A stretch of 28,300 bases of DNA from a virus. The notes under the pieces are model-generated. The model was not told the DNA's origin and searched no databases. It was given only the letters and a program-made list of their open reading frames with translations. Positions 6,839 to 24,983 of this stretch are shown piece after piece (the stretch's first letter is position 1; the number at the start of each line of letters is the position of its first letter). A program made the position numbers and the translations under genes. Where the stretch lies: positions 1 through 28,300 of IMG/VR virus record IMGVR_UViG_3300020578_000340. One strand, given 5' to 3'.

Positions 6839-7104
6839 CTCCTCGGAATCACTTGCACTTGACTCATTTGGTTGTGCTCAAAGTCAATCGTCCCAGCCAT
6901 CACGACAGCCTTATCGTTCGCATGAACCAAGTACCCCATCGTGTTCATCGCTATCGGCATGGTGTCATCGTCCTCACCGAACGGGAACTCAATCCACACC
7001 TGCTGATGCTCCCAAGTGTCGTACCAAACGATGATGCACGCCCTCGCCACCTTCTTGATGTCGTCGCCGACCAACGAATCAAATAGCGCTGAATACTCGT
7101 CCAC
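6811..7104 (-). CDS. Conserved small phage protein, unknown function
   Basis: A 97-residue protein with a beta-rich pattern: WYDTWEHQQVWIEF, then a turn with acidic residues, MGYLVHANDKAVVMAG and VIPRSCIVAITVL at the end. The GYLV...VV.A...IPR.CI pattern is one I recall from small phage proteins without a role. GTG at 7104 is the only suitable start, 26 bp inside the metallophosphoesterase gene, with a purine-rich stretch before it. The N-terminal part (DDIKKVARACIIVWYD) may be helical. Its end contains the promoter for the recombination genes. Confidence 0.65.
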   Translation of the reverse strand: MDEYSALFDSLVGDDIKKVARACIIVWYDTWEHQQVWIEFPFGEDDDTMPIAMNTMGYLVHANDKAVVMAGTIDFEHNQMSQVQVIPRSCIVAITVL

Positions 7105-8230
7105 GATAAACCGCCTCTCCGTTGATTATGGGAATAATCTCGTAAGTCCACCGACCGCTCGGTAACTCGGTCACGACAGCCAAACCTTGTTGCCACGACT
7201 CAAACCGTTGAATCGGCATACCGACATCATCCACGCCAGACTTCGTGGACGGCACCGCCCCATCCACCCGACACAAACAACCTGGGGAGAAAGCCACCAC
7301 CTGTTCCATCGCATCAGCGACCTCGTAGGTTTCCGAGTGCACCGAAATCCTGTGGATGTGACCCTGAACGAACGACTGGCGTTCGTGCTTGGCGACCTTC
7401 GCGACATCCAACCGCTCACCGTGGATGGCGTACAAGGGCGTCTGACCACCCCCGCCCGCGGCAATCCTGTATCTGGACGCTGGATAAGCACCGAGATAAG
7501 ACACCTTCAACTCGCCCAACCGCAACAGGAACGGCAAGGACAGCACAGGGAAACTGTCGGGCAGGTTGGCTTGCCTGAGTCGCATCGCCGCCATAGCGTT
7601 CCGAGCAACGGCTTTCGGCAATCGGTCGTCGTGGTTGCCGCCAAGCAACACCATCGTCGCCTCCTCGCCGACGACCGCCCGCTGTTCAGCCAAGAATCGG
7701 TGCGCCCTATCCACCGATGGTTGGGTTGTCAGAACGAACTCGGGGAGCACGAGGAACTTGGACGACCATTCGGGGAGGTCAATGAAATCGCCGAGGTTGA
7801 CCACGACATCAGGTTTGATGAATCGCATCAACTGGAGTGCGACGCTCATCGCTTTCTCGTCGTGCATCGGCACCATCGCGTCATCCGACATCCGCCTGAA
7901 CCCGATTTGCGGGTCAGGCAACACCACCGTCACTTTCAGGTCGGTTGTCTTTGGTTTGCTCGCTATCGGGCGGACGATGGTGGGGGCGGCTTGCTGAACT
8001 ACGGGATACTGGGGCGCCTCCTCCCAAGCGGGCGAGAGCACCACGGAAGCCAAATCCACCATCTCCGCTTCGCCCTCGGTGTTCTTGAGGAACCCCTGCC
8101 ATACGCTCAGTTTTTGGATTCGCCCGATGTCGTCAACATCTATCCCCGAGCGTTCCAACAGGGCGATGAGTTTCCCGAGTTTGTCTTTCTTCGTCAACTG
8201 CGATTGTGACAACTCATCCGACAAAGTCAT
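7079..8230 (-). CDS. Metallophosphoesterase
   Basis: A 383-residue calcineurin-like phosphoesterase. Metal-binding motifs appear in order: PDPQIG at 105-110 (D106, with Q108 where most families have H), NLGDFID at 145-151 (G147, D148, D151), GGNHDDR at 197-203, H270 in IHGE and GHIHR at 290-294. The first 95 residues are a helical, charged region not needed for catalysis. Such enzymes hydrolyse phosphodiesters of nucleotides or nucleic acids; substrate and role in this phage are unknown. Start at 8230 overlaps the previous stop (ATGA); the longer reading frame to 8326 lies inside the upstream gene. Q for H in motif one occurs in other phage members. Confidence 0.85.
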   Translation of the reverse strand: MTLSDELSQSQLTKKDKLGKLIALLERSGIDVDDIGRIQKLSVWQGFLKNTEGEAEMVDLASVVLSPAWEEAPQYPVVQQAAPTIVRPIASKPKTTDLKVTVVLPDPQIGFRRMSDDAMVPMHDEKAMSVALQLMRFIKPDVVVNLGDFIDLPEWSSKFLVLPEFVLTTQPSVDRAHRFLAEQRAVVGEEATMVLLGGNHDDRLPKAVARNAMAAMRLRQANLPDSFPVLSLPFLLRLGELKVSYLGAYPASRYRIAAGGGGQTPLYAIHGERLDVAKVAKHERQSFVQGHIHRISVHSETYEVADAMEQVVAFSPGCLCRVDGAVPSTKSGVDDVGMPIQRFESWQQGLAVVTELPSGRWTYEIIPIINGEAVYRGRVFSAI

Positions 8231-8526
8231 TTCGCATCCGCCTGACCGTGCATGTACGCCATGTAGTGGCGAATCTGGTTTTTGCTGATGGGATGACCGT
8301 GTTTGGTGAGGGTTTCCGCGAGCCACCTGTACGAGTAGGTGTGGGTTGCCCGTAACGACTTGTCAGCATTTTTCTCCGCCATGCGCTCCAACACTTGCAT
8401 CAGGAGGGCACGCTCCGACGACTCCAACGATTCCAAGATTTGGTGCATACGGTGGCGCATGTTCGCATGAACGAACCCGCTCAACTCGGCGCTCAACGCC
8501 GACTCAACCCTCTTTGATTGTGGCAC
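8227..8526 (-). CDS. Small HTH-like DNA-binding protein
   Basis: A 99-residue helical protein. The first 55 residues are amphipathic helices (ALSAELSGFVHANMRHRMHQ, ALLMQVLERM), then a possible HTH at 65-95 (YSYRWLAETLTKHGHPISKN, followed by QIRHYM). I infer a DNA-binding or transcription-linked role, possibly of the terminase-small-subunit or antiterminator kind; no family is certain. GTG at 8526 has GGAGG four bases before it. It is coupled by ATGA to the metallophosphoesterase and is the first gene after the lysis cluster. Confidence 0.6.
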   Translation of the reverse strand: MPQSKRVESALSAELSGFVHANMRHRMHQILESLESSERALLMQVLERMAEKNADKSLRATHTYSYRWLAETLTKHGHPISKNQIRHYMAYMHGQADAK

Positions 8527-8779: not shown

Positions 8780-9289
8780 TCACGCCTTGCCCGCAAGATG
8801 CGTAAAGAAAACGATGTGCCACGGCTCGCGGTCCATTTCGTGACAGAATCCGTAATCAAGTTCGTGCGCCATAAGCCAGTCAAGGATTATGCCAGAAGCG
8901 TTCGCCACATCACACGCCAAACCGAGGTTGTGCCAACTCTTCCCTGGGGTCGCCAAATCCGCCAGTTTCTCCGATTTCTTGTACCACTTCACGCCGTCCC
9001 AAGTCCGCGTGGACGCCCCGACAATCGGCTCGGTTTGATACCTTTGCCTGAAAGCCCGTGCCTGCATTTCATACGACCTGTAAGTGTCACCAGTTGAAGT
9101 CGGTTTGAGCACCACCCCGTCAGCGCGTGCGGCGAGTCGCATCGCGCCCCAAGCCTTAGCGGCTTCCAAATACAACTTGCCATACGGTTTGATTGGCGCC
9201 AAGAGTGTCTCGGGCACGAAACCGTGCCTCACCCCTTTGAGGGGCTGGGGGACGACAATCTTCCGCTTTGGCAACGCCAAGCGGGTCAT
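8780..9289 (-). CDS. Endolysin, M15 (VanY-type) D-Ala-D-Ala carboxypeptidase-like
   Basis: A 169-residue peptidase. Zinc site: SWHNLGLACDV at 118-128 supplies H120 and D127, and EPWHI at 155-159 supplies catalytic E155 and H158; the SxHxxGxAxD and ExxH-type signatures of M15B/C enzymes are complete. R71 and nearby SYEMQARAF match the conserved arginine region. It has no signal peptide or wall-binding domain, so it is a single-domain lytic enzyme needing a holin, which fits the holin-like genes on both sides. It cuts peptide cross-links or stems of peptidoglycan. ATG at 9289 lies two bases after the upstream stop. Confidence 0.9.
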   Translation of the reverse strand: MTRLALPKRKIVVPQPLKGVRHGFVPETLLAPIKPYGKLYLEAAKAWGAMRLAARADGVVLKPTSTGDTYRSYEMQARAFRQRYQTEPIVGASTRTWDGVKWYKKSEKLADLATPGKSWHNLGLACDVANASGIILDWLMAHELDYGFCHEMDREPWHIVFFTHLAGKA

Positions 9290-9291
9290 CG

Positions 9292-9549
9292 TTACTTCGC
9301 CGAAGGTTTCTTGGTTGCCTTTGCGACCTTGACGGGTTTTGCCACTTCTTTCATGCGCCCGAACCTGTAGTCGGTGGGGTCAAGCCAAGTGATGACAAGC
9401 GGGATAATCGCCGCGACACCCGCTTTGACAATCGCATCAAAGTCGGTTTCTCCACTCAACCAGAGGGCTGTGGTCGCGGCAAGAAACACTTTCGCCCACG
9501 ACTTCAGCATGTCCTGATGTTCTTTTTTCAAGGATTTCCAAGCGTTCAT
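9292..9549 (-). CDS. Holin-like small membrane protein
   Basis: An 85-residue protein with a charged N-terminus (MNAWKSLKKEHQDMLKSW), two hydrophobic segments (VFLAATTALWL at about 21-31 and VKAGVAAIIPLVITWL at about 41-56) joined by a short acidic turn, and a basic Lys/Ala/Pro tail (PVKVAKATKKPSAK). This is the usual layout of a class II holin, forming the lesion that lets the M15 endolysin reach the wall. ATG at 9549 has AGGAGA five bases upstream; longer starts lie outside the ribosome-binding context. It is immediately upstream of the endolysin. Holins diverge quickly, so the call rests on topology and position. Confidence 0.75.
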   Translation of the reverse strand: MNAWKSLKKEHQDMLKSWAKVFLAATTALWLSGETDFDAIVKAGVAAIIPLVITWLDPTDYRFGRMKEVAKPVKVAKATKKPSAK

Positions 9550-9615
9550 GGTCGTCTCCTGTGTCGGACACAACACTAAAACGCCACACCGAATCCGTGA
9601 ATCAACCCCCGTTGA

Positions 9616-19646: not shown

Positions 19647-20063
19647 TTAGAAGGTTGTTCGGGTAATCTGCCCCGTCACTTGGAAATCCAGTGACGCGGT
19701 CACCACATCTCCGACCGAAGCCGAAACTTCGTAGGAGGTGAGGATGCACTCGCCAGTGTACTTGACTTTGCCAGCCGACGAACCCTCGGGACCGTACTCA
19801 AAGGTGAGCGTTGCCGCCTGCCCGACGACTGCCGACAGGGTGGCGTCCGCCGTGGCGTCAAACTTGCCCGAGACGCTGATGGTCGCATCGCTGAGACCAG
19901 TGATGTAGGTCTTTGCCGACCCAGCGACACCGAATGTCGTGGTCTCGGCGGTTTCCACATCGCGGGGGAAGCCGATGTCGTCCAAGTATGTTGAATAATC
20001 AACGAGCGAACCCGCGGCGTTATCCAACTTGAAAACCGCTGACTTACCGTGTACAAATGCCAT
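19647..20063 (-). CDS. Major tail tube protein, paralogue A
   Basis: A 138-residue protein: MAFVHGKSAVFKLDNAAGSL, DIGFPRDVETAETTTFGVAG, AKTYITGLSDATISVSGKFD, LTFEYGPEGSSAGKVKYTG, ECILTSYEVSASVGDVVTAS, FQVTG. This is the normal size and pattern of a siphovirus tail tube protein. It lies between a paralogue (20079-20801) and the chaperone gene, the expected place for the major tail subunit. The protein forms stacked rings inside which the tape measure lies. Which of the two paralogues is the main tube subunit cannot be decided by sequence. Confidence 0.8.
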   Translation of the reverse strand: MAFVHGKSAVFKLDNAAGSLVDYSTYLDDIGFPRDVETAETTTFGVAGSAKTYITGLSDATISVSGKFDATADATLSAVVGQAATLTFEYGPEGSSAGKVKYTGECILTSYEVSASVGDVVTASLDFQVTGQITRTTF

Positions 20064-20078
20064 GATGGTTGTTTCTCC

Positions 20079-20801
20079 TTAGCGTCTTGCGAACGCCATT
20101 GTGAAGGTGATTGAGCCTGTACCGCTTGCCGTTGTACTGGCTCGCAGGTATCGGTTGACGGTGGTGCCCGTTGCGACGAGGACCCGTTCCGAAGTGGTGA
20201 CCGTGGTTGCGACGGTCGTGAAAGTGGCAAGGTCGGCAAAGGTCGTGTTGTCCGACGAGTGCTGAACCTTGAAAGTGGTGTTGTTGTTCATCGTGTTTGC
20301 GGTGACATGCAGTTGTGCCATACCGCCGTTTGCGGTGGAGGCGCTGTTGTCTTGGGAGGCGCCGTTGGCGCTCGCCGTGACCGCCGCGAGAGCGGTGAGA
20401 AGAATCGCATCATCGGCACCGCCGTCAGCCTGCGCGTCATACGAAACCGTGACCACATCACCCACTGGGGCTGAAACCTCATACGAAGTGGTCTTGGCGA
20501 GCATGATGTAGGCGGTGTTGCCCGCCGTGATGCCCGACTGTGCGAACAGGACGGGGGCGAGCGAGTCGGAGCCGAGCGAGGCGCTCAACGCGACATCCAC
20601 CGCCAATGCGGCGCCGTCAAACATTCCAGACGCCGACACGGTCGCGTCACGCAAACCCGTGATGTAGGACTTCGCCGAGGAACCGAAAACGGTCGTCTCA
20701 GCCGTCTCAACATCCTGAGACACAGAGCCATCGTTGAGGAACGCCGTCAACGGGTGAACGCCGTGGATAATCGCCGCATTTTTGCCGTGAATGAAAGCCA
20801 T
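20079..20801 (-). CDS. Tail tube-like protein, paralogue B with C-terminal domain
   Basis: A 240-residue protein. Residues 1-130 parallel paralogue A (MAFIHGKNAAIIHGVHPLTA, DVETAETTVFGSSAKSYITG, DATVSASGMFD, TTSYEVSAPVGDVVTVSYDA). Residues 135-240 form an extra beta-rich domain (DNTTFADLATFTTVATTVTT, VNRYLRASTTASGTGSITFT), similar to Ig-like or decorating domains attached to tail tubes. The two genes probably arose by duplication, with B decorating or specialising part of the tail. The start overlaps the previous stop by one base (TAATG). A tail terminator-proximal ring is an alternative role. Confidence 0.75.
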   Translation of the reverse strand: MAFIHGKNAAIIHGVHPLTAFLNDGSVSQDVETAETTVFGSSAKSYITGLRDATVSASGMFDGAALAVDVALSASLGSDSLAPVLFAQSGITAGNTAYIMLAKTTSYEVSAPVGDVVTVSYDAQADGGADDAILLTALAAVTASANGASQDNSASTANGGMAQLHVTANTMNNNTTFKVQHSSDNTTFADLATFTTVATTVTTSERVLVATGTTVNRYLRASTTASGTGSITFTMAFARR

Positions 20802-21007
20802 TACTTGTCATCCTTTGCAATCGCATCAACGACCACTGGCTCAGGTTGTGGCTCAGGGTCTTTCGTCTTGGGGTCAACGGGTTCAATGATTGCCTGTTCC
20901 CGCAACCATTTGATTGAACGGGGAGGCAAATCCTCAACGACATCGCCGACCTCCGCACGCTTGTTGGGCGGGTAGTCAATCCCTTGTAGAACCTTGTACT
21001 TCGGCAT
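20801..21007 (-). CDS. Small acidic protein before the tail tube genes
   Basis: A 68-residue protein: MPKYKVLQGIDYPPNKRAEV, GDVVEDLPPRSIKWLREQAI, then a Pro/Glu-rich end (KTKDPEPQPEPVVVDAIAKD). The YKVL.GI.YPP..RAE.GD....LP..S..WL pattern is one I recall from small proteins in phage head-tail regions, with no known role. ATG at 21007 has AGGAG four bases upstream; the longer frame to 21052 lacks it. The stop overlaps the start of tail paralogue B, so the two are coupled. Confidence 0.65.
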   Translation of the reverse strand: MPKYKVLQGIDYPPNKRAEVGDVVEDLPPRSIKWLREQAIIEPVDPKTKDPEPQPEPVVVDAIAKDDK

Positions 21008-21056
21008 GTCGCTCCTGAGTGTCTCGGGCGTGCTCGCATCCCCGACTCTCACCCGA

Positions 21057-21107
21057 CCACGAGGGCACGATGGGCGATGCCGAGGTCACGAGGACACGAT
21101 GACATCG
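21057..21107. repeat. Imperfect direct repeat in the gap before the tail genes
   Basis: The 145-bp gap between the transglycosylase-like gene and the small tail gene holds two imperfect copies of CACGAGG-x-CACGATG, starting near 21057 and 21086 (period 29 bp). The rest of the gap contains no convincing promoter or open frame, only a weak hairpin after the upstream stop and one GATGCGA word at 21034. Confidence 0.5.
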
Positions 21108-21152
21108 CCGAGATTACAACCGACACACACCCGCTGAACCCTCAACAGGGGT

Positions 21153-21695
21153 CTAGTCTTTGATTCCCCAGTGCCCCAATCCGCCGTTATCCAACAAATA
21201 CTTGGCGACCCGAAGGTTGCAATCCAACTCCGTCAACAGTTCAATCCCCCCGCCACAAATCTGTCTCGTCACCGTCCGCCAACTTGAGTTGATTTGCAAC
21301 AACCCCGAATCAAAGGAGCCGTTCTTGTTGAGCGCCCACACCATGTTTCCGTTCGCATCCCACTTGGCGTTGACCGCTTTCCTGCGACATCGGCTTTCGC
21401 GGTAGGCGATGTAGGAGAAAGTCTCTACGGGGACGAGTCCGTAGGAGGCGAACAGTTCCTCGTATTGGGGGCACCGCCATCCGCTGGTATCGCGTCGGAT
21501 GGCAACGACCGTGGTGGTGGTCGTGGTGGTCGTGGTGGTCGTGGTGGTCCGAATCGGTAGCGTAGAGGGCACCGAGACGGTAGTGCTCGTGGCGGCGGCA
21601 GGGGCGGACACCTTGGGGGGCAAAACAACCCAGTTGGCGACCATCCCGACCGCCACCCCGACCGCGACCACGCCGATGAAACGGCGTAACGACAT
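21153..21695 (-). CDS. Membrane-anchored transglycosylase/lysozyme-like protein
   Basis: A 180-residue protein. An N-terminal transmembrane or signal-anchor helix (FIGVVAVGVAVGMVANWVVL, about 6-25), a Pro/Ser/Thr stalk ending in about 13 threonines (50-62), then a lysozyme-like catalytic domain: YIAYRESRC with E100, GSFDSGLLQINSSW at 126-139, NLRVAKYLLDNGGLGHW at 160-176. This is the E...GLLQIN layout of Slt/goose-type transglycosylases. It sits between head-tail and tail tube genes, not in the lysis cluster, so it could act in infection (virion-associated), superinfection control or lysis. ATG at 21695 overlaps the preceding small gene (TGATG). The poly-Thr stretch is encoded by a simple repeat. 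Confidence 0.8.
   Translation of the reverse strand: MSLRRFIGVVAVGVAVGMVANWVVLPPKVSAPAAATSTTVSVPSTLPIRTTTTTTTTTTTTTVVAIRRDTSGWRCPQYEELFASYGLVPVETFSYIAYRESRCRRKAVNAKWDANGNMVWALNKNGSFDSGLLQINSSWRTVTRQICGGGIELLTELDCNLRVAKYLLDNGGLGHWGIKD
21510..21549. repeat. Short tandem repeat encoding a poly-Thr stalk
   Basis: Repeats of the 9-bp unit CGTGGTGGT (plus strand) encode about 13 consecutive threonines between the membrane anchor and catalytic domain of the transglycosylase-like protein. Simple repeats of this kind can change length in frame. Confidence 0.75.
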
Positions 21696-21775
21696 CACCG
21701 CTTCTTCCCCACAGACATGACGGCGACAAGCCCCGCGAGAAGGGCGAATCCGACAGCGAACCAAAACTCAGTCAT
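21695..21775 (-). CDS. 26-residue transmembrane peptide
   Basis: A short frame encoding MTEFWFAVGFALLAGLVAVM followed by SVGKKR: one transmembrane helix with a basic end. The start lies inside the preceding 37-residue gene (8-bp overlap), and the stop overlaps the start of the transglycosylase-like gene as TGATG, so the three are coupled. Size and topology suit a minimal holin/antiholin, or a membrane partner for the anchored enzyme. It is too short for any family call. Confidence 0.55.
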   Translation of the reverse strand: MTEFWFAVGFALLAGLVAVMSVGKKR

Positions 21776-21881
21776 CTTTGGAATCTCCGATAACCCACCC
21801 GACGAATACAGCCAACCACACTGGCGAGAACACCAGCAGGAAACCGTAAGCCACCTTTAGGAATGTCATCAACCCTGTCAC
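21768..21881 (-). CDS. 37-residue transmembrane peptide
   Basis: A short frame with start GTG at 21881 (GGAGGAGG four bases before), encoding a hydrophobic peptide with FLKVAYGFLLVFSPVWLAVF and VGWVIGDSKDD at the end: one or two membrane passes with an acidic tail. An internal ATG at 21869 is less well placed for the ribosome site. It is the first gene behind the promoter at 21908-21936, and it overlaps the next small gene. Together with the 26-residue peptide it may form a two-component membrane pair. Confidence 0.55.
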   Translation of the reverse strand: MTGLMTFLKVAYGFLLVFSPVWLAVFVGWVIGDSKDD

Positions 21882-21907
21882 GAATCCTCCTCCCGTTGAC
21901 AGGTTTC

Positions 21908-21936
21908 ACCCTACCGAAATCTTGGTCGCATGGCAA
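21908..21936 (-). promoter_or_regulatory. Sigma70-like promoter for the small-membrane/transglycosylase cassette
   Basis: On the minus strand TTGCCA (21931-21936), 17 bp and TAGGGT (21908-21913), between the Com-like gene and the 37-residue gene. The predicted leader carries GGGAGGAGG before the GTG. The -10 departs from consensus at two positions. Confidence 0.45.
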
Positions 21937-21955: not shown

Positions 21956-22105
21956 TTATGCGGCGTTGCGAGCCTTACAGCGTGGGCAAATAATGGTCCA
22001 CGGACGAGTCACCGACACCGCCAACATCTTCTTGCACCGCCAACAGCGAGGCGCCTCATCCGTTTTCTGCGCCCGCCCATACGGGTCGGGGGCTTTCTCG
22101 CTCAC
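21956..22105 (-). CDS. Com-like zinc finger protein, 49 residues
   Basis: A short frame, GTG at 22105, starting MSEKAPDPYGRAQKTDEAPR. Four cysteines form CWRC (21-24) and CPRC (40-43) around a 15-residue loop (KKMLAVSVTRPWTI), followed by KARNAA. This resembles the phage Mu Com protein, a zinc finger that activates translation of the mom DNA-modification gene, and similar unassigned small proteins in other phages. No mom-like gene is seen here, so its target RNA or DNA is unknown. The start overlaps the tail terminator stop as GTGA, and no other gene lies in this 150-bp stretch. Confidence 0.7.
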   Translation of the reverse strand: MSEKAPDPYGRAQKTDEAPRCWRCKKMLAVSVTRPWTIICPRCKARNAA

Positions 22106-22497
22106 GGCAACCACACCGTAAAGTCACAACCAACCAGCGCCCTGTCATCTTGGTCGCGTTGCAAAGGATACAACTCCGAGGTGGACAGAACGCAAAGGAT
22201 TGCCACACCCGACAGCGTCGTGTTGCGGATTGCGCCGAGCACATCGCGCACATCCTCGGCTTTCGTTCTCGCCGTGGGATAATCGTTGCGAGCCGCCCTG
22301 CAATACACCCGAATCCGCTGGTGGTCAATCGCCTTCACACCATCGCCGAAGGTGTAGTCGGGACCGACGCCAGAGTCCTCGTACAGCGTGACACACGCAT
22401 CGGGGTCAGACGGCATACGCGCAAGGAAGATGTTGGTTGCCAAGGTGCCTTCCCCTTGTGTTTGGAGGTAAGTGCCCAACGCATCAAGAATCGCCAT
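22102..22497 (-). CDS. Tail terminator / minor capsid-like protein
   Basis: A 131-residue protein: MAILDALGTYLQTQGEGTLA, then ARMPSDPDACVTLYEDSGVG, HQRIRVYCRAARNDYPTART, a helical part with KAEDVRDVLGAIRNTTLSGV and a strand-rich end (LVGCDFTVWLP). This is the pattern of the tail terminator or minor capsid family of siphoviruses (DUF3168- or gp17-like), with the P-x-x-P..V.LY..G start. It lies after the gp10-like gene, the expected place for the last neck subunit before the tail. It starts at the base that ends the gp10-like gene. Confidence 0.75.
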   Translation of the reverse strand: MAILDALGTYLQTQGEGTLATNIFLARMPSDPDACVTLYEDSGVGPDYTFGDGVKAIDHQRIRVYCRAARNDYPTARTKAEDVRDVLGAIRNTTLSGVAILCVLSTSELYPLQRDQDDRALVGCDFTVWLP

Positions 22498-24032: not shown

Positions 24033-24983
24033 CTAGGCAACGCAGTTGCTGAAGAAGTAGCCGAGGTCCGCGCCGATGACTTTCATGTCAAACGAGATTT
24101 CGGCTTCAATGCGGTCAGCCTTGAACTGCTCCATGCGGATGCGGCTGGTGCCGACAGTGGCGCCGAGACCTTGCGACACGCCAGTCCACGACATCACATA
24201 GCCGCCCGAGGGCTGGAGAAGCCCAGCCGAGGGAGCCGAGTAGGTCAGGAGGGCGTTCTTGCCGTGGGTGAAGTCGTAGGCTTGGGTGCCACCTTCGTTG
24301 TTCGTCGCCTTGACAGCCTTCGCCACCATGACACGCGGGATGTCAAACAGGCTCGCCATCAACTCTGCGGTCAATGTCTGCGCCGATGTGTACTTGATGC
24401 GGTCCACCAAGTCGGGGTGATTCTTCAGTTGACGGAATACCTCGTAGCCGAGGACGAGAGTGTTCGGCTCGTAGCCCGTGGTTGAGAGGATTTCCGCCTT
24501 GCCCTCCTCAACATCGTTGAGCGGGTCGGAGTTGGTGTAGTCACTCCAAAGGTTGGTGGGTGTGTCATCCGTAGCCCAAACGCCCGTTGTGAAGAACGAG
24601 GAGACAAACTGCGTCTCCATCTTCAACATGAGGCGCCCAGTGACGAACTCTGCGGCTTCGCGGTCAACCTGAATCGGTGCGTCCGCGTTGGCGCGAGTCT
24701 GGTCGCCGATGTCCTTGTGGAAGGCGAACACATCACACTGGTACGAATCGGTTGACAGCCCGTAGCCGCCGCCCGCCGACTCGGTCGCATCGGCGCGACG
24801 CTGTGCCTCGTCGCGGAACCAGTCATTCTTCGTGTAGGTGAAGAACTTGTCGGATTGCTTGGAGACGGGAACAATCGGGAACACGCGGCTCGCGATGAAG
24901 TTCTCTTGCATCTGCATGTAGGCGACGCTGATGTTCGTCAGAATCGCATCAACATGGACTTGTGAGGATGTTGGCTGTGGCAT
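24033..24983 (-). CDS. Major capsid protein
   Basis: A 316-residue protein: VDAILTNISVAYMQMQENFI, ASRVFPIVPVSKQSDKFFTY, DEAQRRADATESAGGGYGLS, DIGDQTRANADAPIQVDREA, a helical spine-like region (AEFVTGRLMLKMETQFVSSF) and TLVLGYEVFRQLKNHPDLVD with a C-terminal beta region. The start pattern (SQVHVDAILTNIS...Q...F.A.RVFP.V.V..) and length are those of HK97-fold major capsid proteins of environmental siphoviruses. It forms the icosahedral shell. The next gene upstream is decoration-like and the one before is scaffold-like, as expected. Confidence 0.9.
   Translation of the reverse strand: MPQPTSSQVHVDAILTNISVAYMQMQENFIASRVFPIVPVSKQSDKFFTYTKNDWFRDEAQRRADATESAGGGYGLSTDSYQCDVFAFHKDIGDQTRANADAPIQVDREAAEFVTGRLMLKMETQFVSSFFTTGVWATDDTPTNLWSDYTNSDPLNDVEEGKAEILSTTGYEPNTLVLGYEVFRQLKNHPDLVDRIKYTSAQTLTAELMASLFDIPRVMVAKAVKATNNEGGTQAYDFTHGKNALLTYSAPSAGLLQPSGGYVMSWTGVSQGLGATVGTSRIRMEQFKADRIEAEISFDMKVIGADLGYFFSNCVA

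Follow-up and report, generated by a model that had tools for sequence, protein, structure and literature searches.

A promoter-driven slot for exchangeable, exported lysozyme-fold enzymes ahead of the tail-tube genes in a lineage of uncultured phages

SAR endolysins with pinholins, as in phage 21, combine an N-terminal membrane helix on a lysozyme with tiny membrane peptides. Morons are accessory transcription units in phage genomes and lie, for instance, between late genes of the lytic phage SPP1 (PMC6316719). A compositional difference is common in morons, but it lies outside the definition quoted in that paper. Specialised transglycosylases of the EtgA kind make openings in the wall through which secretion systems can pass (PMC6403190).

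Here we analysed a window of 28,300 nucleotides, which is the whole stretch studied (positions 1 to 28,300 of the IMG/VR virus record IMGVR_UViG_3300020578_000340). A sequence-only reading had proposed that positions 21153 to 21936 could be a moron inserted between neck and tail genes, namely a self-contained cassette of two tiny membrane peptides and a membrane-anchored transglycosylase under its own promoter. The features of the window used below are the following.

22102..22497, minus strand: tail terminator / head-tail connector, flank (Pfam PF12691, 1.1e-13; PHROG 2595)
21956..22114, minus strand: 52-aa zinc-ribbon protein, Com-like (RCWRC-x15-CPRCKARN), upstream border of the slot
21908..21936, minus strand: cassette promoter P1 (-35 TTGCCA, 17-nt spacer, -10 TAGGGT)
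21768..21881, minus strand: p37, one-helix membrane peptide of 37 aa, GTG start, ORF with GGAGGAGG upstream
21695..21775, minus strand: p26, one-helix membrane peptide of 26 aa, ATG start, coding status tentative
21153..21695, minus strand: exported lysozyme-superfamily enzyme of 180 aa, ATG start, with signal/anchor, poly-Thr linker and catalytic domain (residues 73-180)
21008..21152, minus strand: 145-bp non-coding gap with a -10-like TAATCT (21116-21111) and mini-hairpin units (21098-21085 and 21069-21056)
20801..21007, minus strand: small conserved protein (MPKYKVLQGIDYPPNKRAEVGD..), downstream border of the slot, kept in position (PHROG 7924, unknown function, 2e-13)
20079..20801, minus strand: tail tube protein 1, flank (PHROG 9522 major tail protein, 1e-56)
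9295..9576, minus strand: two-helix holin-like protein next to the M15 gene (from its translation; holin call by eye only)
8783..9289, minus strand: M15 peptidase (Pfam VanY, 7e-12)

Read along the minus strand, the order is tail terminator, zinc-ribbon gene, promoter, p37, p26, enzyme, 145-bp gap, small conserved gene and two tail-tube genes. The latter (20079-20801 and 19647-20063) are consecutive and mutually related, and are annotated likewise in the Arthrobacter phages Ottawa and Laroye. The two overlapping peptide frames were found as proposed: the start of p26 overlaps the stop of p37 by 8 nt. Since the start of the enzyme gene also overlaps the stop of p26 (TGATG), the three genes look translationally coupled. 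The repeat-bearing gap of 145 bp is likewise present at 21008-21152 and carries a tandem repeat, and the M15 lysis module that had been placed 12 kb away corresponds to the M15 and holin-like pair, 11.6 kb from the cassette. The GC content of the cassette (0.57-0.63) does not differ from that of its surroundings (0.52-0.62).

We compared the gene order around the cassette by tblastn of the window genes on about 100 IMG/VR loci and found the same order in these loci. The slot was taken as the interval bordered by the zinc-ribbon gene upstream and the small conserved gene downstream, and 40 distinct intervals were compared. In 34 of these the slot protein matches our enzyme profiles, either as type A, the type of the window, or as the more divergent type B. 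Further divergent members occupy the slots of L066 and L085-L087; the enzyme of the L087 type, which has a lipobox, is the only one to pass the Pfam SLT cut-off (36.3 bits). The slot is empty, measuring only 110-132 bp, in the more distant loci L081 and L091, and on inspection also in the still more distant L096. In the annotation of the cultured Microcystis phage Mae-JY09 the terminator is directly followed by the small conserved gene and the tail tubes, so that the slot is empty there as well, and the Microbacterium phage ValentiniPuff has short genes at this position, without the enzyme. Searched over their whole length, the records of Ottawa, Laroye, ValentiniPuff and Mae-JY09 gave no type A match. 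Other genes, including one for a metallophosphatase-like protein, fill the slots of L078, L079, L082 and L084. In L078 (3734-5765) and L079 (948-3016) the slot holds four unrelated genes, one of them encoding a metallophosphatase-like protein of 395 aa; in the window, a gene of this metallophosphatase-like kind lies at 7079-8326, well away from the slot.

Between the same flanks the cassette is therefore absent or replaced in some relatives, as in morons. It is absent from L081, L091, L096 and, by annotation, Mae-JY09, and other genes replace it in L078, L079, L082 and L084, but this does not hold for closer relatives: all 31 with a tail tube at least 61% identical have the slot filled with a lysozyme-family gene. 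The latter argues for a persistent cargo site rather than a sporadic moron or a recent insertion. The likeness to the morons of SPP1 consists in an extra unit with its own promoter between conserved structural genes that is absent or replaced in some relatives. Here, however, the whole lineage retains both the site and the type of gene it carries while the enzyme is swapped, a clear terminator is missing and the GC content is like that of the flanks. The filled, empty and refilled loci offer a natural comparison for the role of an accessory exported lysozyme.

In agreement with the sequence-only reading, the enzyme starts with a hydrophobic helix, followed by a poly-Thr stalk and a catalytic-type Glu at residue 100. 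The stalk has 13 consecutive Thr, and the Glu belongs to an ES motif. In an alignment of 21 homologues E100, D129, G131, L132, Q134 and N136 are invariant, as are four cysteines (C75, C103, C147 and C159). The enzyme stays below the cut-off of Pfam SLT PF01464 (16.7 versus 21.3 bits), and 19-20 of the 21 family members give sub-cut-off matches to SLT or SLT_3. When the profile of the 21 homologues was compared with the PDB, the best match was EtgA (3e-7), with egg-white-type lysozymes near 0.01. A structure of residues 73-180 was predicted from the window and IMG/VR rows only, leaving out the row of phage DSL-LC01. It matches lysozymes with Z about 9 and an rmsd of 2.3-3.0 over about 90 residues, and the best Foldseek match of the predicted domain is again EtgA (probability 1.0, E 4e-3). 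Together, the invariant residues, the EtgA profile match and the predicted fold place the enzyme in the lysozyme superfamily.

When aligned by sequence alone with EtgA and hen lysozyme, the enzyme is out of register by about 12 residues near the catalytic Glu; from its place at a helix end in the model, we infer that E100 is this residue. In hen lysozyme, the counterpart of D129 in the alignment is the second catalytic Asp, part of a D-x-G-x-x-Q-I-N-S motif, which is suggestive only as to whether the enzyme hydrolyses its substrate. It may be either a lytic transglycosylase or a hydrolysing muramidase. With SLT (PF01464), SLT_3 (PF18896) and EtgA/IagB the enzyme shares a catalytic-type Glu at a helix end, D-x-G-L-x-Q-x-N, a predicted lysozyme fold and export; it differs in falling below the family cut-offs and in being anchored via a poly-Thr stalk. 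Another similar protein is the 'transglycosylase SLT' of the Actinomycetia phage DSL-LC01 (OQ999401), which has a catalytic domain 62% identical and an N-terminal hydrophobic segment. In contrast to the enzyme of the window, it is encoded by a single gene elsewhere, about 1 kb from M15, and is longer, with a segment that looks peptidoglycan-binding-like by eye.

Type B enzymes carry the motif HGDCSW..RESGCC..SDSGLxQxNG, in which the ES..D.GL.QxN pattern of type A recurs, and are remote homologues of type A (hhalign probability 97.8%, 6.6e-13). The predicted type B model reaches a Z of only about 5, so the case for its fold depends more strongly on the type A profile match.

Every allele of the enzyme starts with a hydrophobic segment, although the kind of signal, which was judged by eye, varies. 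In the window it is Gly/Ala-rich and anchor-like, while some other alleles have a more hydrophobic helix; cleavable-looking AxA sites occur in several type B enzymes and in L006, L064 and L066, and L087 has a lipobox. What the alleles appear to have in common is thus predicted export together with the catalytic residues, whereas anchoring is not common to them. The four invariant cysteines would suit an oxidising, extracytoplasmic place. Export signals and cysteines together argue for action outside the membrane and not in tail assembly.

Chance can be excluded as an explanation for the enzyme gene, judging from its homologues in dozens of contigs and a dN/dS of 0.14-0.25, and likewise for p37, for which dN/dS values of 0.24-0.31 point to a real gene. 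For p26 the values, obtained over 26 codons, are 0.28 against one relative and 0.78 and 1.61 against near-identical ones; p26 may be a gene. Equivalents of both peptides are kept in the closest relatives, and L036 and L037 have one, which is p37-like. Small membrane peptides are absent from L031, L032, L034 and L038, and a clear one is missing in most type B loci. In L053, L051 and L069 a short leader ORF ending HYLMRLACPYYSILGGNR stands just before the type B enzyme gene and overlaps its start. From their distribution, p37 and p26 appear to be dispensable and not a defining part of the unit. The coupled cassette of three genes thus stands for the closest relatives; elsewhere the peptides are absent or different while the enzyme persists. 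The locus resembles the SAR endolysin and pinholin of phage 21 in the N-terminal membrane helix on a lysozyme and the tiny upstream membrane peptides. It differs from them in that the helix is not consistently weakly hydrophobic and other alleles have cleavable-looking or lipoprotein signals, as well as in the dispensable peptides and the presence of a separate holin-like gene.

The proposed promoter was found at 21936..21908 on the minus strand as a sigma70-type sequence (TTGCCA-N17-TAGGGT). The pattern TTGnnn-N17-TAnnnT lies directly 3′ of the zinc-ribbon stop codon in 12 of 14 distinct type A/B loci, whereas 0.25 were expected from shuffles, and in none of 140 control stretches of the tube gene. 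On these counts we regard chance as excluded for the promoter. At the slot, the pattern was found neither in empty or otherwise filled loci nor with the L066 and L087 enzymes. Its retention in the A/B loci and its lack with other slot contents indicate that P1 belongs to the A/B cassette. With its -10 TAGGGT, P1 departs from the E. coli consensus and was therefore not listed by a standard promoter scanner. Over the whole window the pattern shows no enrichment (4 copies on one strand and 5 on the other against 2.6 expected), so the weight of the case for P1 is on conservation. After the stop codon of the enzyme gene there are only weak stems (mean z -0.9) with no U run, and no convincing terminator.

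In a maximum-likelihood tree of tail tube protein 1, the well-supported branches require at least three changes for type A and at least two for type B. Moreover, the enzyme gene of L070 is chimeric: its 3′ part is 87% identical to that of L054 over 186 nt, while the flanks are 58-65% identical. The alternation of types on the tail-tube tree and the chimeric gene identify the slot as a site of swapped cargo. Homologues of type A also occur singly at other positions in unrelated, larger phages. The homologue of one such unrelated phage (L006) is the closer one, with about 71% identity over the catalytic part and 55% overall, whereas the L064 and L072 alleles from the same slot are 37-39% identical overall. 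These sequence comparisons demonstrate horizontal exchange of the slot enzyme, which may have gone in either direction. The structural operon thus has a fixed place where phages repeatedly swap exported, predicted wall-cutting enzymes under a private promoter.

The sequence-only reading had offered a second lysis factor, superinfection exclusion and wall remodelling as possible roles, of which help in lysis is favoured. Our best explanation, to which we give about even credence, is a moron-like slot from which an exported lysozyme is supplied that weakens the wall and thereby contributes to lysis. The cargo slot sits between the zinc-ribbon gene and the promoter of the tail-tube operon, with a promoter-driven gene for a lysozyme-fold enzyme as its resident. 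This enzyme would be made from its own host-type promoter and not with the tail, be exported via its N-terminal signal or anchor and sit outside the membrane, the Thr-rich arm reaching towards the wall. From there it would cut glycan strands and either weaken the wall beforehand or complete its breakdown at lysis, alongside the holin-dependent M15 peptidase, which would cleave the peptide moiety. A role in adjusting translation or in assisting insertion into the membrane is possible for the leader peptides.

Among the long records (34-62 kb), five carry an M15 gene and all five have a filled slot; no M15 match was found in the long records without the slot enzyme (L078, 34 kb; L081, 30 kb; fragments). 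In unrelated phages, enzyme and M15 are both present in 7 of 18 records. The two genes are 1.0-1.2 kb apart in four records of unrelated phages, including DSL-LC01, although these four cases may share ancestry. In other large phages the distance is 27-126 kb, so proximity to lysis genes is no rule. A search of 12 records, many of them fragments, revealed no integrase, which makes a trait expressed by lysogens unlikely. The co-occurrence with M15 and the missing integrase favour help in lysis over a lysogen trait, without amounting to proof. For annotation, the locus separates the 'lysis cassette' from 'all muralytic genes'.

What speaks against the lysis reading is that a host-type promoter could mean early expression, which would fit better to exclusion or to wall remodelling. 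In superinfection exclusion, an anchored, exported lysozyme made early would alter or occupy the outer face of the membrane or the wall and thereby block a second injection. A host-type promoter independent of the tail genes, an anchored enzyme on a long stalk and the exchange of one enzyme type for another, reminiscent of an arms race, would suit such a role, and surface-exposed exclusion proteins are known from Gram-positive phages, among them the lipoprotein Ltp (PMC3952083). We nevertheless consider exclusion rather unlikely, since the catalytic residues are invariant although blocking would not need them, some alleles have cleavable-looking signals and may thus be unanchored, and PADLOC returned no match. 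To our knowledge, exclusion proteins of the Ltp kind are not lysozymes. The lack of PADLOC matches also led us to set aside a defence-system reading. For local holes made during infection for assembly or secretion, as by EtgA, the EtgA profile match would be an argument, but EtgA may just be the nearest solved structure and the phage has no known need for an envelope-spanning machine; this is quite improbable.

An ordinary core lysis gene within the tail operon, with no moron involved and with fast divergence behind types A and B, would agree with the homology of the two types and with the lysozyme-type gene in every closer relative (31/31). It is unlikely, because the type changes forced by the tree and the chimera show exchange and not divergence alone, the slot is empty or holds other genes in more distant lineages, and loci lacking the A/B enzyme lack the promoter too. 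The position among tail genes could also mean a virion-associated lysozyme, a tail part used at entry. However, all alleles carry export signals, including a lipobox, which do not fit tail assembly in the cytoplasm and make a tail part unlikely; in addition, the gene has a separate promoter and is swapped independently of the tail-tube genes. On the export signals and the tree-forced swaps we set this very improbable reading aside.

The zinc-ribbon gene and the hairpin leader of the gap point to possible control of tail-gene translation. The 52-aa protein matches the PHROG 6417 translational regulator (6e-5), reaches only 0.48 with PHROG gpCom, and stays below the cut-off of Pfam Zn_ribbon_Com (14.7 versus 22.9 bits). 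The four cysteines of its zinc ribbon (C24, C27, C43 and C46) are conserved throughout 12 relatives in the alignment; in a 13th row, which is partial, the first Cys is missing. Across the 23 relatives compared, empty-slot ones among them, the 145-bp gap retains TAnnnT together with one or two tandem units. Each unit is a mini-hairpin, CGT-NN-CC-NN(N)-GTG, with one changed base in a few units, and the flanking triplets pair and covary (GTC/GAC, ACC/GGT, GCC/GGC, GAC/GTC). Fully paired are 18 of 27 distinct units, compared to 9.8 in shuffles, and none of 5000 shuffles was as high. The element lies at 21056-21116 on the minus strand, ahead of the tail-tube operon. Rfam gave no match for the gap at E up to 1. 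Gene and element co-occur within this lineage, whereas the surroundings of the tail genes in the cultured relatives revealed neither.

In phage Mu, the Com protein recognises CC(N)2-3GAG within a hairpin loop of its target mRNA, and the doubled motif GAGNNCC(N)2-3GAGNNCC was obtained for it by selection (PMC6483171). Here the unit reads GTGNCC(N)2-3GTGNCC, which makes it a candidate target only. By analogy with this similar doubled motif, the zinc-ribbon protein and the hairpins may form a regulator-target pair, and we put forward Com-like control of tail-gene translation as a hypothesis. A further and unlikely idea is that the slot, between the Com-like gene and its presumed RNA target, is a dedicated exchange site whose exported lysozymes, expressed from their own promoter, would act before lysis in competition between co-infecting phages, with the Com-like protein gating tail translation.

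By capsid and tail tube, the nearest cultured phages infect Arthrobacter and Microbacterium. When host genomes were searched with the capsid profile, only three phage-like contigs were found, in MAGs labelled Actinomycetota, Chloroflexi and Acidobacteria, and with the enzyme profile, at the patterns used, none of 84,980 species genomes yielded a relative. The host is probably an actinobacterium, and the slot adds new types of predicted exported lysozymes from uncultured, probably actinobacterial phages. The major capsid protein (24033-24983) is very conserved, with a mean column identity of 85% among relatives that share only about 50-80% identity in their tail-tube proteins.
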